A DNA stretch of 64,000 nt, from assembly GCA_021813805.1 (NCBI GenBank), contig JAKAJL010000012.1:24129-88128 (forward strand), in the 5' to 3' direction. The translations under genes were made by a program, and so were the position numbers. The stretch comes from Pseudomonadota bacterium. Its GTDB lineage: Bacteria > Pseudomonadota > Alphaproteobacteria > Rhizobiales > Beijerinckiaceae. Below, in pieces: positions 4,083-8,152 of the stretch (its first letter is position 1; each line of letters begins with the position of its first letter). The notes below the pieces were generated by a model. That model was not told the origin of the DNA, ran no database searches, and saw only the letters and a list, made by a program, of their open reading frames with translations.

Positions 4083-4665
4083 CGCGGCGCATTCCAGCCC
4101 TCTTCCCGTGCGGCGAAGGCGTGGTCGGGGACAATGAGCGTTTAACCCGAATCCAGACGCAGGGGCCGATCCTCGTGCGCAACCGGCTCGCCGCGTTGCC
4201 GCCGCTGTGACCTCGACCGGTTGCCCGGCAGCTGGCGGCGGAAACCCGCTTTCCCAACCCGCCCCTTCGCCGATCGCGGCGTCTTGCCGCGGTCTGCCGC
4301 TCGCAGGCGACACCGACCTCCGGACGAATCCGGCCGCCGACGACCAACCGGCCTTCCGGCTGGTCGCCCGTCTACGGCTGCGCCATATCGTCTGGGGGCG
4401 CGGGTTGCCGGAGGCATGACGCCAGGCGGCCGGATCTAATCCAGTTTCTTAAAGAGGAAACGGGTCGAAGGCGCGCCCTGCCGCCGCGAGGCGGGCGTCG
4501 AGCAGGCCACTTTGCCGCGACATGGCGGCGCGTCATGGCGCCGCGAACTTGCCCGTCCAGCCAGGGAATCGACGCTACGCTGGCGGGAAGCGAAGTTTCC
4601 CTGTTTCCGCTCTGAGTCTGGCCCGAAAGGCGCGGAATTGGCGCATTGACCGCGGTGGCGCGCGG
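4083..4665. other. Long non-coding stretch upstream of the sigma-54 promoter
   Basis: No convincing gene is present here: the open frames on both strands are Arg/Pro/Gly-rich and show no family motif. The stretch holds several short inverted repeats, for example GGGAA/TTTCC around 4585-4601 and CCAGC/GCTGG around 4557-4584. Such dyads would suit upstream activator sites for the sigma-54 promoter just downstream, but none is strong enough to call. I do not recognise a riboswitch, RNase P RNA, tmRNA or SRP RNA on either strand. Confidence 0.4.
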
Positions 4666-4682
4666 TTGGCACGGCGCATGCT
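4666..4682 (+). promoter_or_regulatory. Sigma-54 (RpoN) -24/-12 promoter
   Basis: The sequence TTGGCACGGCGCATGCT matches the consensus YTGGCACG-N4-TTGCW at all but one position. The invariant GG (4668-4669) and GC (4680-4681) are exactly ten bases apart. It points at the carbonic-anhydrase-like gene, whose ATG is about 80 bp from the predicted start of transcription (near 4693). A sigma-54 activator gene lies three genes downstream, which supports function. Confidence 0.75.
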
Positions 4683-4774
4683 GTTTCACTCGTCGTCCGG
4701 CGGCGGACCATCTGTCCGATGGCGGATCGCGCGAATCGACCGAAAGCGCGCGGAAACAACATGGAGGAAACGCG

Positions 4775-5428
4775 ATGTCCACTCTGAAAGAGCAGCTTGC
4801 CGCACGGGTCAAGGAATACGATCACTGGGCGACTAGGCGGCGTTACGGCGCCGACGGCCCCAACAACCGCAGGCTCTGGGTTCTCGCCTGCATGGATGAG
4901 CGCCTGCCGGTGGACGAAGCCCTCGGTATCCGCGTCGATTCGCCCGCGGGCGGCGGCGACGCCCATTGCTTCCGCAACGCGGGGGGAATTGTCACCGACG
5001 ACGCCATCCGCTCGGCGATGCTGACCTGCAACTTTTTCGGGACCAAGGAGATCGTCATCGTCCAGCATACCCAGTGCGGCATGCTGTCGGCCAACGCCAA
5101 CGACCTTGAAGCCGCCCTGCGCAAGCGCGGCGTGGACATCGACAGCCTGACCCTCGATCCTACCCTTCCCGAGTTGAGCCTTGCCAAAGGCGGCTTCGCG
5201 AAATGGATCGGCATGATGGACGACGTCGATCAAGCCTGTATGCGGACGGTGGAAACCTTCCGCAATCATCCGCTCATCCCCCGCGACGTCGTGGTCAGCG
5301 GATGGATCTGGGAGGTCGAGACCCGGCGTCTGCGGGCGCCCAGCCTCGACGCCTCCCGCACCGGCAGAACCGACGTGACGTCCGCACAATTCGGCGTCAA
5401 GGAAGGCCAGCCTCCGCGTTGGTCGTAA
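4775..5428 (+). CDS. Class-D beta-carbonic anhydrase / carbonyl sulfide hydrolase-like enzyme
   Basis: Zinc enzyme of the beta-carbonic anhydrase fold, 217 aa, cytoplasmic. The zinc and catalytic residues are plain: C39-x-D41-x-R43 in ACMDERL, then H98-x-x-C101 in QHTQCGM, with RNAGG at 67-71. The short length, the HTQCGM box and the RNAGGIVTDDAIRS segment resemble the class-D branch. That branch includes mycobacterial carbonic anhydrases and the COS hydrolase of Thiobacillus thioparus. Substrate (CO2, COS or CS2) cannot be told from these motifs. The start at 4775 has a strong ATGGAGGAAA ribosome site. It is the first gene after a sigma-54 promoter and is followed by an FmdB protein and a sigma-54 activator. 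Confidence 0.88.
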   Translation: MSTLKEQLAARVKEYDHWATRRRYGADGPNNRRLWVLACMDERLPVDEALGIRVDSPAGGGDAHCFRNAGGIVTDDAIRSAMLTCNFFGTKEIVIVQHTQCGMLSANANDLEAALRKRGVDIDSLTLDPTLPELSLAKGGFAKWIGMMDDVDQACMRTVETFRNHPLIPRDVVVSGWIWEVETRRLRAPSLDASRTGRTDVTSAQFGVKEGQPPRWS

Positions 5429-5439
5429 AACTCCGCGCC

Positions 5440-5469
5440 GCCCCCGCCGGCGACTCCGCCGGCGGGGGC
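5440..5469 (+). terminator. Strong intercistronic hairpin
   Basis: A perfect 12-bp stem (GCCCCCGCCGGC / GCCGGCGGGGGC) with a 6-base loop starts 11 bases after the carbonic-anhydrase-like stop codon. No T-run follows, so it is more likely an mRNA 3'-end stabiliser or a partial terminator than a full terminator. Confidence 0.5.
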
Positions 5470-5513
5470 TCCGATCAAGACGAGGTCATCCGAAACCAGG
5501 CGGGGGAACGTCC

Positions 5514-5747
5514 ATGCCGACCTATGATTATTTTTGCCCCAGTTGCCGGCATTCCTTTGCCGCTCACCACAAAATGTCCGAACCGCGCCCTTCCTGCCCC
5601 CAATGCGGCGGCTTGGTCGAACGGGCTTTCCTCACGGCCCCGGCCATTCACGGCGGCGCCGCGCGCGGCCGCGAAGCCGCGATTCGCTCGCTCACCGCAA
5701 CCGCGGCCGACAGTGGACACGGCCCCAAATGCCCCTGTTGCCATTGA
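5514..5747 (+). CDS. FmdB-family zinc-ribbon protein
   Basis: Small 77-aa protein starting MPTYDYFCPSC, the signature opening of the FmdB/putative regulatory zinc-ribbon family. The zinc ribbon is formed by C8/C11 and C28/C31 (CPQCGG). A second Cys cluster, KCPCCH, ends the protein. The family was named from a formamidase operon of Methylophilus and is often found beside small-molecule hydrolases; its biochemical role is not settled. The ATG at 5514 follows a GGGGGAACG ribosome site. It sits between the carbonic-anhydrase-like enzyme and the sigma-54 activator on the same strand. Confidence 0.85.
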   Translation: MPTYDYFCPSCRHSFAAHHKMSEPRPSCPQCGGLVERAFLTAPAIHGGAARGREAAIRSLTATAADSGHGPKCPCCH

Positions 5748-5903
5748 CGGAAGCATCCGCCCGCAGACGGCGGACGTCTTCTGCGGTCACCCAGTTGGAT
5801 TCCCCGCCGCCGATCGCCTAATGTGGTGACGTGGCCGGCCGGAGACGGCGCTCCGCTCCGGCCGCGCCCGTTCTCCTTTCGCGACGATCGACGAGGTGAA
5901 TTC

Positions 5904-7508
5904 ATGGCGCAGTTCCCTGCGAAGTCGCTCACGCCGATTTCGTTCCTGCAGTCGTTCATTTGCCAAAGCGCTCGAACGCTCGAACGCCAGGGCGGAAGCA
6001 GCGGCTTGGAGCGTTTCATCGAAGGGGTGGGGCTGGCCGCCAGCTTTTCCCTCGAAATGAACGCCCGTGACGACTTGGGCTGCGCCGGCGCGATCACCCC
6101 CGACGCCTATGCCGAGATCATCATCGCCCTCAAGAATGAGATCGGCGGCCATTTCTCACGCGCTTCGGCCGAAGCAGGCGCGGTCCGGATCGTCAATCGC
6201 ATCTGTCCGTTTGGCGACCACGTCAAGCAGGCGCCCGAATTGTGCCGGATGACGGCCAGCGTGTTCGGAGGCATCGCGGCGCGCAATTTCGGCTATGCCA
6301 AGGTCGAATTGAAGCAGCGGATCGCGCTCGGGCACGAATGCTGCGAGGTTTGCGTCCATCTTGATCCGGCGACGGTCGGCGACCGGCCCGGCGACGAATA
6401 CCACCGCGAGGGCGACGAGATTGTCTCGCGCTCAGGATCGTCCGAAGCCCGGGCGCGCGTCGAGGCGCGGTTGCGACAGGTGTGGCGTCCGCCCGCCGCC
6501 GATCATACCGGCCGGACGCGGCCGCCGCCCGCCATCGTCGCCGAGTCGGCGAGCCTGCGCGCGGTTCTCGAGGTCATCGAAACCATTGCGCCGACTCCGG
6601 CGACCATCCTCATCACCGGGGAAACGGGTGTAGGCAAGGAGGTCGTCGCTCGATCCATCCACGCCATGAGCGAGCGGGCCGACCGCAACTTTCTCGCCAT
6701 AAATTGCGGCGCGATTCCCGAATCCCTGATCGAAAGCACGCTGTTCGGCCACGAGAAGGGCGCATTCACCGGCGCCTTTACTGTCCACCAGGGCTTTTTC
6801 GAACGGGCCGACCGCGGGACGCTCCTGCTTGACGAAATCGACAGCCTGCCGGTCGCTGCGCAGTCCCGCCTGCTGCGTGTCCTTCAGGAGGGCGAGTTCG
6901 AGCGGGTCGGCGGGCGTCGGACATTGCGGACGGATGTGCGCATTATCGCCGCGTCGAACCAGGATTTGGAAGACGCGGTGCGCCGAGGCCGGTTCCGCAG
7001 CGACCTTTATTATCGCTTGAAGGTCATCCCGATCCATATTCCGCCGCTGCGCGACCGTCCCGACGATCTTGGGCCGCTCGTGCGTCATTTCCTCGACCGA
7101 CTGGCGCAAAAATACGGCGGCGTCGCCAAAACTCTGGACGAAGGGGTGTGGCGCCGCATTCGCAGTTATTCCTGGCCCGGCAATTTGCGGGAACTGGAAA
7201 ACGTCATGGAGCGGGCGTTTCTGTTCAGCCGCGGTCCGATCATCGATCGCATCGACGTCGGAGCCGATCTCGTCCCGGATGCGAAATCGCCGTTGGCGAC
7301 GGCGCCCTTGCGGTTGCTGCGCGATGACGCCGCCAGAGAGGCCGAAGGCAAAGCCATCGCCGATGCGCTGCGGCAAAGCGGCGGCAATGTCCGCGCCGCC
7401 GCCCGCCGGATGGGCGTTACGCCGCGCGCCCTGCACATGCGCCTGAAACGTCTGGGCATCGCCGCCGTCGCTTTTCGCGGCCATGGTTCGGGAAATCCGG
7501 CCGAATAA
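5904..7508 (+). CDS. Sigma-54-dependent activator with N-terminal cysteine-rich (MetOD1-like) sensor domain
   Basis: Bacterial enhancer-binding protein, 534 aa. Residues about 30-155 resemble the family I know as methanogen output domain 1. The segment NRICPFG...PELCRMTASVFGGIAARNFGYAKV carries Cys101 and Cys114, and CCEVC carries Cys146/147/150. Next is the AAA+ domain, with Walker A GETGVGKE (239-246), the sigma-54 contact loop GAFTGA (286-291) and Walker B LLLDEID (about 307-313). A Fis-type helix-turn-helix lies near residues 490-525. I chose the ATG at 5904, which has GAGGTG upstream; the frame is open further back. The Cys-rich domain could bind a metal, heme or Fe-S centre (inference). 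Likely target: the sigma-54 promoter at 4666. Confidence 0.9.
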   Translation: MAQFPAKSLTPISFLQSFICQSARTLERQGGSSGLERFIEGVGLAASFSLEMNARDDLGCAGAITPDAYAEIIIALKNEIGGHFSRASAEAGAVRIVNRICPFGDHVKQAPELCRMTASVFGGIAARNFGYAKVELKQRIALGHECCEVCVHLDPATVGDRPGDEYHREGDEIVSRSGSSEARARVEARLRQVWRPPAADHTGRTRPPPAIVAESASLRAVLEVIETIAPTPATILITGETGVGKEVVARSIHAMSERADRNFLAINCGAIPESLIESTLFGHEKGAFTGAFTVHQGFFERADRGTLLLDEIDSLPVAAQSRLLRVLQEGEFERVGGRRTLRTDVRIIAASNQDLEDAVRRGRFRSDLYYRLKVIPIHIPPLRDRPDDLGPLVRHFLDRLAQKYGGVAKTLDEGVWRRIRSYSWPGNLRELENVMERAFLFSRGPIIDRIDVGADLVPDAKSPLATAPLRLLRDDAAREAEGKAIADALRQSGGNVRAAARRMGVTPRALHMRLKRLGIAAVAFRGHGSGNPAE

Positions 7509-7630
7509 TTTCCGCTTGCCGAAAACGGGGGCTTGTCCCCGCCCGAGGGCCCAACGACCGGCGCCGGACGATTGCCTTCGGCAAACGCGGTCGCGAGTCG
7601 CCTCTTATTGGGGCGAAGAGCCATCGACGG

Positions 7631-7657
7631 GAGGTCCGCATGAGTCATGCGGACCTC
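7631..7657. terminator. Palindrome between convergent moaC and sigma-54 activator
   Basis: A perfect odd palindrome with 13-base arms (GAGGTCCGCATGA / TCATGCGGACCTC) around one central base begins 3 bases past the moaC stop. It can form a hairpin in either transcript and probably ends the minus-strand trp-moaC operon, although no T-run follows. Confidence 0.5.
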
Positions 7658-7660
7658 ATG

Positions 7661-8152
7661 TCACCCGCTTCTGAAATAATCGCCCGATTTGCCGCCAGTC
7701 TTTTGAACCAGCGCGATTCCCTCGATCCGCATGGCGCGATCGGCGGCTTTCAGCATGTCGTAGATCGTCAGGCAGGCGACCGAGACGGCGGTCAGCGCCT
7801 CCATTTCCACGCCCGTTTCGCCCAAAACTTTTGCTCGCGCAACGACCCGGAGGCCGGGGAGCGACTCGTCCGGCGCAATCTCGACCTCGACCTTGGTCAG
7901 GTTGATCGGGTGGCACAGCGGGATGAGCTCATGGGTCTTCTTCGCCGCCATGATCCCGGCGATGCGCGCGGCGGCGAAAACGTCACCTTTCTTCGCCTGG
8001 CCTGAAAGGCACAAGGCCAGCGTTTCCGCCTTCATCACCACGGCGCCGCGCGCGACAGCCTCGCGCGCCGAGCGCGGCTTGTCCGAGACATCGACCATGA
8101 ATGCCTCGCCCGCCGCGTTGATGTGGGTCAGGGCTGGCCTTTTCGGGCTCAT
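7661..8152 (-). CDS. moaC: Cyclic pyranopterin monophosphate synthase
   Basis: Second step of molybdenum cofactor synthesis, making cPMP from the MoaA product. 163 aa, usual length. Diagnostic segments are [47 protein letters not shown] and [20 protein letters not shown]. Its ATG overlaps the trpC stop by 4 bases (ATGA), so translation is probably coupled. The trpGDC-moaC order is common in alphaproteobacteria; the moeA and lexA genes that often follow are not here. Confidence 0.96.

Follow-up and report, generated by a model that had tools for sequence, protein, structure and literature searches.

A probable RpoN-dependent CS2/COS hydrolase module with a predicted paired operator and a MetOD1-type activator

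Among the sulfur gases of the atmosphere, CS2 and COS rank as major ones, and ammonia monooxygenase is one of the metalloenzymes that CS2 poisons. Our literature search found no account of how bacteria regulate CS2 hydrolysis, nor of a switch of the kind described here. The locus in this window (the whole stretch of DNA analyzed, 64,000 nucleotides) raises the question of whether some bacteria carry a gene switch dedicated to these gases. Behind a predicted sigma-54 promoter, it encodes a CS2-hydrolase-like enzyme, an FmdB protein, and a sensor-equipped sigma-54 activator, in that order on the same (+) strand (Table 1); all four parts of the original prediction were confirmed. We consider it probable that they form a dedicated, RpoN-dependent, CS2/COS-inducible hydrolase module, with predicted paired sites upstream of the GG-N10-GC promoter.

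Table 1. Features of the module and its upstream region (window positions).
Feature	Position	Strand	Basis
UAS2, weaker predicted palindrome upstream, 21 bp from UAS1	4561..4583 (core 4566-4578)	.	Matrix score
UAS1, predicted activator-binding palindrome GGGAAG-N5-TTTCCC	4582..4604 (core 4587-4599)	.	Held-out matrix
Predicted sigma-54 (RpoN) promoter, -24 GG / -12 GC	4667..4682	+	Pattern match; also conserved ahead of the enzyme gene of relatives
CS2-hydrolase-like enzyme	4775..5428	+	Pro_CA profile, 3ten alignment, conserved residues
Perfect 13-bp hairpin, no T run, between enzyme and FmdB genes	5440..5469	+	Fold test
FmdB-type zinc-ribbon protein, 77 aa	5514..5747	+	TIGR02605 and alignment
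Sigma-54 activator, 534 aa: MetOD1 sensor (~1-180), AAA+, Fis-type HTH	5904..7508	+	Profiles and alignment

The module is carried by many sulfur-, ammonia-, and methane-oxidizing bacteria; orthologues of the enzyme are present in, for example, Methylomonas koyamae and Nitrosospira multiformis, and both genera include culturable carriers. Ninety-nine relatives of the enzyme gene were found and 80 were kept, to which the layout counts refer. FmdB adjoins the enzyme gene in 77 of the 80, an activator sensor lies nearby in 73 (including L014, where a stop codon falls inside the matched sensor stretch), and a GG-N10-GC promoter scoring at least 10/12 lies upstream in 71, compared with at most 4 for shuffles. 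The layout is thus conserved in relatives, and on this the original prediction had been made to depend. In seven loci no sensor was found: L048, L081, L084, and L088 are on contigs shorter than 6 kb and the contig of L020 stops 0.8 kb past FmdB, so that in these five a sensor may lie beyond the sequence at hand; L072 is from an actinobacterium, and L074 is from a Nitrospirae MAG. Distances also co-vary across loci (r 0.62 for enzyme and activator, 0.82 for enzyme and FmdB), but this is confounded by species descent and is not taken as proof.

The enzyme matches Pro_CA (PF00484, 34 bits; cut-off 25.7), and its homologues, of which a search gave 1036, are now often labelled "carbonic anhydrase." Its description as class-D beta-carbonic-anhydrase-like was right as to family but too generic, since its best solved relative is the CS2 hydrolase of Acidianus A1-3 (3ten/3teo, E 4e-50; next best E 5e-22). 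The two share the family, the zinc ligands, and a Phe-Phe motif, and 90 of 177 aligned residues are identical (51%). The Cys-His-Cys zinc ligands and Asp/Arg dyad (C39, D41, R43, H98, and C101) are present in 81/81 enzymes, and so is F87-F88, which aligns to the FF of 3ten. Phe-Phe is given as the characteristic motif of CS2 hydrolase in the available text of PMC6382920 (citing Smeulders, 2011). On sequence grounds, the enzyme is likely a CS2/COS hydrolase; its placement in clade D, taken from the closest relatives, is provisional. Compared with 3ten, the window enzyme has extra residues at 26-27 and 56-61, the latter being an SPAGGG insert. CS2 hydrolases assemble as an octamer or an interlocked hexadecamer, and we take these residues to be inserts of the type reported to impede interlocking; in the Acidithiobacillus thiooxidans S1p enzyme, inserts reportedly have this effect according to a 2013 abstract. 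CS2 hydrolases are present in Acidithiobacillus thiooxidans G8 as well as S1p. To our knowledge archaea lack sigma-54, and the archaeal CS2 hydrolase is thus without a sigma-54 system.

The substrate could instead be mainly intracellular COS, for example from thiocyanate; the module would then be one metabolic step in the use of thiocyanate or methylated sulfur, with the parent compound rather than CS2 as its inducer. Thiocyanate hydrolase is known to act through COS as an intermediate (excerpts of PMC6934394 and PMC5744179), and Thiohalobacter thiocyanaticus and Thiobacillus are among the carriers. However, no thiocyanate hydrolase was recognized by eye among the 11 inspected of 35 listed frame clusters, and a cyanate pathway is reported for T. 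thiocyanaticus in the accessible part of PMC6504805. The COS hydrolase of Thiobacillus thioparus THI115 (3vqj) is likewise an H2S-releasing gas hydrolase of the beta-carbonic-anhydrase family (PMC8209446, in part), but the window enzyme resembles the CS2 hydrolase instead: 3vqj is far more distant (E 2e-18, best stretch 31-115) and has no Phe at the position matching the motif. We regard this explanation as unlikely.

The proposed CS2/COS-inducible module depends on its activator, which matches Sigma54_activat (PF00158, 231 bits) and HTH_8 (PF02954, 33 bits) and contains Walker A (GETGVGKE at 239) and GAFTGA (at 286) motifs. Its longest frame begins with GTG at 5823; similarity among relatives favors ATG at 5904. 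The sensor matches MetOD1 (PF18546, 42.9 bits; cut-off 23.8), as do all 45 aligned sensors (from 44 of the 73 loci plus the window); ten match ATC_hydrolase, and none matches V4R at E<=0.1. The sensor had been predicted to be Cys-rich, and C101, C114, and C147 are indeed invariant in 45/45. No invariant or nearly invariant histidine, as an H-NOX heme sensor would have for its heme ligand, was found in these 45 sensors. The predicted structure has the V4R/H-NOX/TRAPP fold found in the phenol sensors DmpR, MopR, and PoxR; because the fold is common to both, the sensor may work like that group, though it is not filed there. Similarities with these regulators include the predicted fold of the N-terminal sensor, an AAA+ domain with GAFTGA, a Fis-type HTH, and a gene adjoining those likely controlled. 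Unlike in DmpR, MopR, and PoxR, the sensor is MetOD1 and not V4R in Pfam, and no phenol genes were noticed beside the activator. The operator of the phenol regulators also differs from the palindrome in the window. MetOD1 was named from methanogens, and archaeal response regulators with this domain likewise have three conserved, clustered cysteines (PMC5847659, in part). There the domain occurs alone or behind REC or REC-PAS, with no AAA+ architecture given in the available text (PMC5847659), whereas in the window it is joined to AAA+. The activator is predicted to be dedicated to the enzyme and FmdB genes. The FmdB protein matches TIGR02605 (53 bits; cut-off 31.3); in the alignment of 77 loci plus the window, the four cysteines of a CxxC...CxxC zinc ribbon are present in all 78 sequences, and a His/Cys tail (H46, H69, C73, and C75) is conserved.

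Invariant cysteines could also serve to detect zinc or, on the product side, H2S or persulfide, and the module would then respond to sulfide or zinc. A zinc site is present in V4R-type sensors, and a ZIP transporter gene occurs in some loci, with SQR-like and TauE genes in others. However, a product sensor would presumably act as positive feedback without a first trigger, no SQR-like frame was seen in 60/80 loci, and the FmdB and ZIP genes suit enzyme loading no less than they suit a zinc response. This explanation is rather improbable in our judgment. SQR-like genes, found downstream on the same strand in 16/80 loci, are in line with an H2S-releasing enzyme; persulfide-dioxygenase-like or TauE genes are similarly placed in some carriers.

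The enzyme might instead be an ordinary carbonic anhydrase, for CO2 supply or acid tolerance, controlled by an activator responding to CO2, bicarbonate, or pH. The enzyme belongs to the carbonic anhydrase superfamily, and many carriers are autotrophs or acidophiles, judged from their names. In Acidihalobacter aeolianus, apparently the same trio (can, a sigma-54 regulator, and a zinc-containing protein, matched by description) is found near kdp, is said to resemble Acidithiobacillus proteins, and is read as acid tolerance (PMC9062700); the available text of that paper mentions neither a promoter or operator nor a sensor or any connection with CS2. The claim that no such system had been described therefore stands for the switch, in the literature searched, but not for the trio, which apparently had been mentioned. 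Two Thiohalobacter beta-carbonic anhydrases are placed under carbon fixation in an excerpt of PMC6504805, their identity with the module enzyme not being established. Against an ordinary carbonic anhydrase, the enzyme is much nearer to the CS2 hydrolase than to other solved relatives and has the Phe-Phe motif throughout, and sulfide-oxidation genes are downstream in part of the loci. Unlike a housekeeping carbonic anhydrase, it is rare, being found at E<=1e-25 in 2/398 genomes of an evenly drawn sample of the phylum; a sensor joined to AAA+ was found only in those same two. Characterized CS2 hydrolases have negligible or no CO2 hydration (PMC8209446, in part). A role in CO2 or pH physiology is quite improbable.

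In the promoter TGGCACGGCGCATGCT, GG (4668-4669) and GC (4680-4681) are separated by ten bases, which puts the expected transcription start near 4693, and rpoN is present in the window's genome. The site is the sole window match to TGGCAC-N6-TGCT with at most one mismatch (2.56 expected by chance). Across the whole genome, a similar pattern gave 5 matches versus 6 for the reversed control, which is not above chance; the pattern alone was therefore discarded as evidence, a single site proves nothing, and conservation in relatives carries the proof. That conservation, described above, upholds the predicted RpoN promoter ahead of the enzyme gene. L074, which has no activator and whose site is at -290, is among the 71 and is probably a chance match. 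Upstream of the enzyme gene we also predict a conserved operator candidate for the activator, the palindrome GnGAAGTnnnACTTCnC, which is new here and often occurs in pairs 20 bp apart. The operator matrix was trained on 44 of 52 dereplicated upstream regions, with six held out and L074 and L075 in neither set. The six regions held out were those of the window and five other loci; the resulting matrix gave UAS1 17.3 bits, a score reached by 0/400 shuffles and ranking first across the whole 64 kb window; UAS2 scored 6.6 bits (8.0 bits with the full matrix). In 52/77 upstream regions, the two top-scoring sites lie 19-22 bp from each other. Chance or leftover sequence similarity, which the genome-wide promoter counts and the relatedness of the loci might suggest, is a very remote and already disfavored explanation in view of the held-out matrix test, the exact 20-bp pairing, the shuffles, and the 52 regions left after dereplication.

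In the mechanism we propose, CS2 or COS would diffuse into the cell, and the gas or a close product would bind the sensor, whose fold is seen on the model, near the three invariant cysteines. Binding would relieve inhibition of AAA+, by analogy with phenol in DmpR, MopR, and PoxR. The activator would then bind the two palindromes, located by conservation about two helical turns apart and about -100 from the start, and with ATP would open RpoN polymerase at the -24/-12 promoter. At its Cys-His-Cys zinc site, where the residues are present, the enzyme would hydrolyze CS2 via COS to CO2 and 2 H2S, as extrapolated from characterized relatives. FmdB, with its extra His/Cys tail, might help zinc loading or enzyme assembly, which is the weakest step. 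H2S would go to sulfide oxidation, for which an SQR-like, persulfide-dioxygenase-like, or TauE gene follows in some carriers.

More tentatively, with chances we put slightly short of even, the module may be a mobile, self-regulated CS2/COS response and the first gene switch to be dedicated to CS2 and COS, in which a MetOD1 sensor for either gas, perhaps reacting directly at the three cysteines, forms one protein with a sigma-54 activator that has a paired operator of its own. If true, this switch would tie nitrifiers, methanotrophs, phototrophs, and sulfur oxidizers to turnover of these gases, would give the MetOD1 domain a bacterial function, and would provide a genomic marker for CS2/COS-responsive bacteria and possibly a biosensor part. 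With an operator candidate and a named sensor, regulation of CS2 hydrolysis becomes directly testable.

Within the genus, the enzyme is present in 2/11 genomes, and the activator adjoins moaC in both. Horizontal gain is not clearly supported: G+C of the module (0.654) is like that of its flanks (0.638 and 0.655), and in the other nine genomes the 1.5 kb examined around MoaC gave no PhoH match, so no clean empty site emerged. A guess that the window's own genome is from a methanotroph is not informed by the AMO family search, which matched neither this genome nor any control genome.

The gap between the enzyme and FmdB genes folds at z below -2 in 45/72 testable sequences (mononucleotide shuffles), and its hairpin possibly sets the ratio of both products.

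All four parts named in the original prediction, a sigma-54 promoter, a hydrolase-like enzyme gene, an FmdB gene and a sigma-54 activator gene, are found in the window. These parts are of known kinds, and the novelty is in their combination and in the gas switch that they are predicted to form. Among the literature matches listed, as titles and abstract starts, there is no description of the regulation of a CS2 hydrolase or of this switch. Apparently the same gene trio is mentioned in an excerpt of one paper, where it is read as acid tolerance (PMC9062700). The activator and moaC genes converge, and an 18-base inverted repeat in the gap between them (7626-7662; 89% complementary, 1-base loop) is possibly a shared transcription end for both.

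Coordinates of the module genes in the window
Feature	Position	Strand	Remarks
Enzyme gene	4775-5428	+	ribosome site GGAGG 4763-4767
FmdB gene	5514-5747	+	
Activator gene	longest frame from GTG 5823; ATG 5904 preferred	+	taken as 534 aa because similarity to relatives begins at about ATG 5904, not GTG 5823

A single scan of species genomes found 99 relatives of the enzyme gene, and 80 were kept. The layout, whose conservation was one of the checks set by the original prediction, recurs in these loci; by tblastn, FmdB adjoins the enzyme gene in 77/80 and the activator sensor is near it in 73/80 (≤2 kb away in 71 of those 73). When all locus frames were clustered, the enzyme, FmdB and activator families were far in front. 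The next four clusters were antisense shadow frames of those three, and the next real family was SQR-like (20 loci). The activator lies downstream of the enzyme on the same strand in 39 of the 80 loci (in two of them another, different activator lies upstream), divergently in 29, upstream on the same strand in three and downstream on the opposite strand in one. No activator frame >300 aa is present in eight loci, one of which is cut by the contig end. By record title, carriers include Nitrosomonas, Nitrosospira, Methylomonas, Methylobacter, Thiobacillus, Thiocapsa, Thiohalobacter, Acidiphilium, and Acididesulfobacter. One contig labelled as a Bacteroidetes MAG has match scores equal to a Nitrosomonas locus (the pair is L043 and L045) and looks wrongly binned.

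The reciprocal test used 398 genomes drawn evenly from the phylum. The enzyme is present at E≤1e-25 in two, and the sensor domain by itself matches in 16. In the 16 fetched loci, a match to the activator's AAA+ domain follows the sensor just twice, in the two enzyme-carrying genomes. MetOD1-like sensor matches outside the module (L100-L113) occur in 14/398 genomes, 11 in frames of 178-234 aa and three in frames of 870, 974, and 56 aa.

Promoters were scored ≤300 bp upstream against TGGCACG-N4-TTGC(A/T), with GG and GC fixed and a maximum of 12. A score ≥10 is found in 71/80 loci, and 11 is reached in 45. The same threshold gave a mean of 0.82 loci in shuffled upstream DNA (maximum 4 in 50 rounds), three loci on the reverse strand, and five in the coding control. 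At 9/12 the count is 76/80, yet the coding control gives 33, so this threshold is not counted as evidence. The window's genome has rpoN. There is no such promoter before the window's activator gene, where the best score is 6/12.

Gapped-word counting found GAAG-N5-CTTC in 26 of 52 dereplicated upstream regions, and after refinement the palindrome was GnGAAGTnnnACTTCnC. In 77 upstream regions (the window and 76 loci with a promoter ≥9/12), a site of ≥11 bits is present in 74, compared with a mean of 1.15 and a maximum of 3 in shuffles. The two best sites are spaced exactly 20 bp apart in 46/77 regions and 19-22 bp in 52/77; no 19-22 bp pairs appeared in 20 rounds of shuffling. Some of these regions also served for training, so the matrix was tested on six held-out loci: the window, the two loci closest to it (L009 and L010), one MAG of Acidiphilium, and two labelled Deltaproteobacteria and Acididesulfobacter. 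The observed score was reached by 0/400 shuffles for the window, L009, L010, and the Acidiphilium MAG, with L009 near-identical to the window sequence and no separate witness, and by 2/400 for L058 and 6/400 for L086. With the held-out matrix, the window site at 4587 tops all 64,000 bases (17.3 bits; next 12.7). GGGAA-N7-TTCCC occurs five times in the window's whole genome (reversed control, two), and the strict promoter pattern is absent from the contigs of the other four sites. These counts are in line with the activator being the regulator of one promoter, and the activator is predicted to bind the palindromes.

In Pfam, the window enzyme matches Pro_CA alone (34 bits). The closest solved structure is Acidianus CS2 hydrolase 3ten/3teo (E 4e-50), followed by 3las, a putative carbonic anhydrase (5e-22), and COS hydrolase 3vqj (2e-18). 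Ninety of 177 residues aligned with 3ten are identical. Both share an NFFGTKEI stretch, whereas four other aligned solved relatives lack both Phe; an excerpt of one study gives Phe-Phe as the characteristic CS2 hydrolase motif (PMC6382920). Phe-Phe is kept in 81/81 enzymes (window and 80 relatives), as are the residues of the zinc site and the dyad. Two stretches absent from 3ten, at 26-27 and 56-61, are present in all 81, most frequently as PD (28/81; AD in the window) and TPAGGG (22/81; SPAGGG in the window), respectively. In 2013, Smeulders et al. reportedly described an active CS2 hydrolase from A. thiooxidans S1p with PD inserted at 26-27 and TPAGGG at 56-61. If this is right, the enzyme would be of the S1p type. 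Another CA-family match, which is more distant (44% identity), lies in the window's genome at G000:C69:57498-57821.

The neighbours of the module bear on whether the enzyme could instead act on CO2. SQR-like proteins occur in 20/80 loci, and 16 are on the enzyme strand, starting ≤3.8 kb downstream. The SQR-like protein of one relative (L079) matches SQR structures at E 7e-99 and is under the cut-off of the NCBIfam SQR model. A TauE in the same locus is over the Pfam cut-off, and its cluster spans 12 loci; the cluster of a persulfide-dioxygenase-like protein, under the NCBIfam cut-off, spans seven. Release of H2S by the enzyme would account for these sulfide genes, and a CO2 enzyme would leave them unexplained. 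The window's own module has no SQR-like, TauE, or persulfide-dioxygenase-like neighbours. We infer that the window enzyme hydrolyses CS2/COS.

In 45 aligned sensors (44 loci and the window), C101, C114, and C147 are invariant, and conservation is highest from CPFG through LC..T..V.G.IA..NFGY. All 45 match MetOD1 (Pfam), and none matches V4R at E≤0.1. Ten of 45 also match ATC_hydrolase (best E 1.5e-5; window 5904-6518 and the sensor alignment). The enzyme of that family cleaves a C-S bond, so the sensor's ancestor may have been an enzyme acting on such bonds. Foldseek with the predicted sensor model (pLDDT 79) returned TRAPP subunits, H-NOX, PoxR, DmpR, and MopR. VIA-align scores were 12.0 for a TRAPP subunit, 11.0 for DmpR (rmsd 4.4, 162 aligned), 10.6 for MopR (rmsd 4.2, 158 aligned), and 10.4 for PoxR (rmsd 4.3, 162 aligned). 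An excerpt of one study likens MetOD1 to HNOB, V4R, and ATC hydrolase domains and gives three Cys as common to MetOD1 and V4R, above all the V4R sensors of PoxR and MopR (PMC5847659). The predicted fold agrees with this likeness, which supports a ligand-gated sigma-54 activator; the model names no ligand. The inducer would be the gases CS2/COS.

The four ribbon Cys of FmdB are invariant (77 loci and the window), and H46, H69, C73, and C75 in its tail are kept at 94-97%. A ZIP zinc transporter lies between FmdB and the activator in Methylomonas loci L022 and L023, and likewise on a Methylobacter plasmid. FmdB may serve in zinc supply or assembly, which is the least certain step.

The plasmid locus (L115; NZ_CP091425.1, 6068-13378) contains the enzyme, zinc ribbon, ZIP transporter, sigma-54 activator, and a cupin. 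Its promoter scores 10/12, and its operator sites reach 18.3, 14.6, and 10.3 bits; this locus is outside the training set but close to L022 and L023. The module can probably move, because this copy sits on a methanotroph plasmid, flanked by IS3 and IS1 transposases on either side. In the second of the two enzyme-carrying genomes of the phylum sample (G140; L114, L099), the stretch is the same as locus L056 apart from an insert that bears a transposase. This insert is about 1.4 kb, with a 9-base target duplication; it lies between the conserved promoter and the enzyme gene and parts the switch from the enzyme. In methanotroph versions, a cupin-domain gene recurs directly behind the activator (L051:8672-9076, L022:10768-11217, L115:11691-12089).
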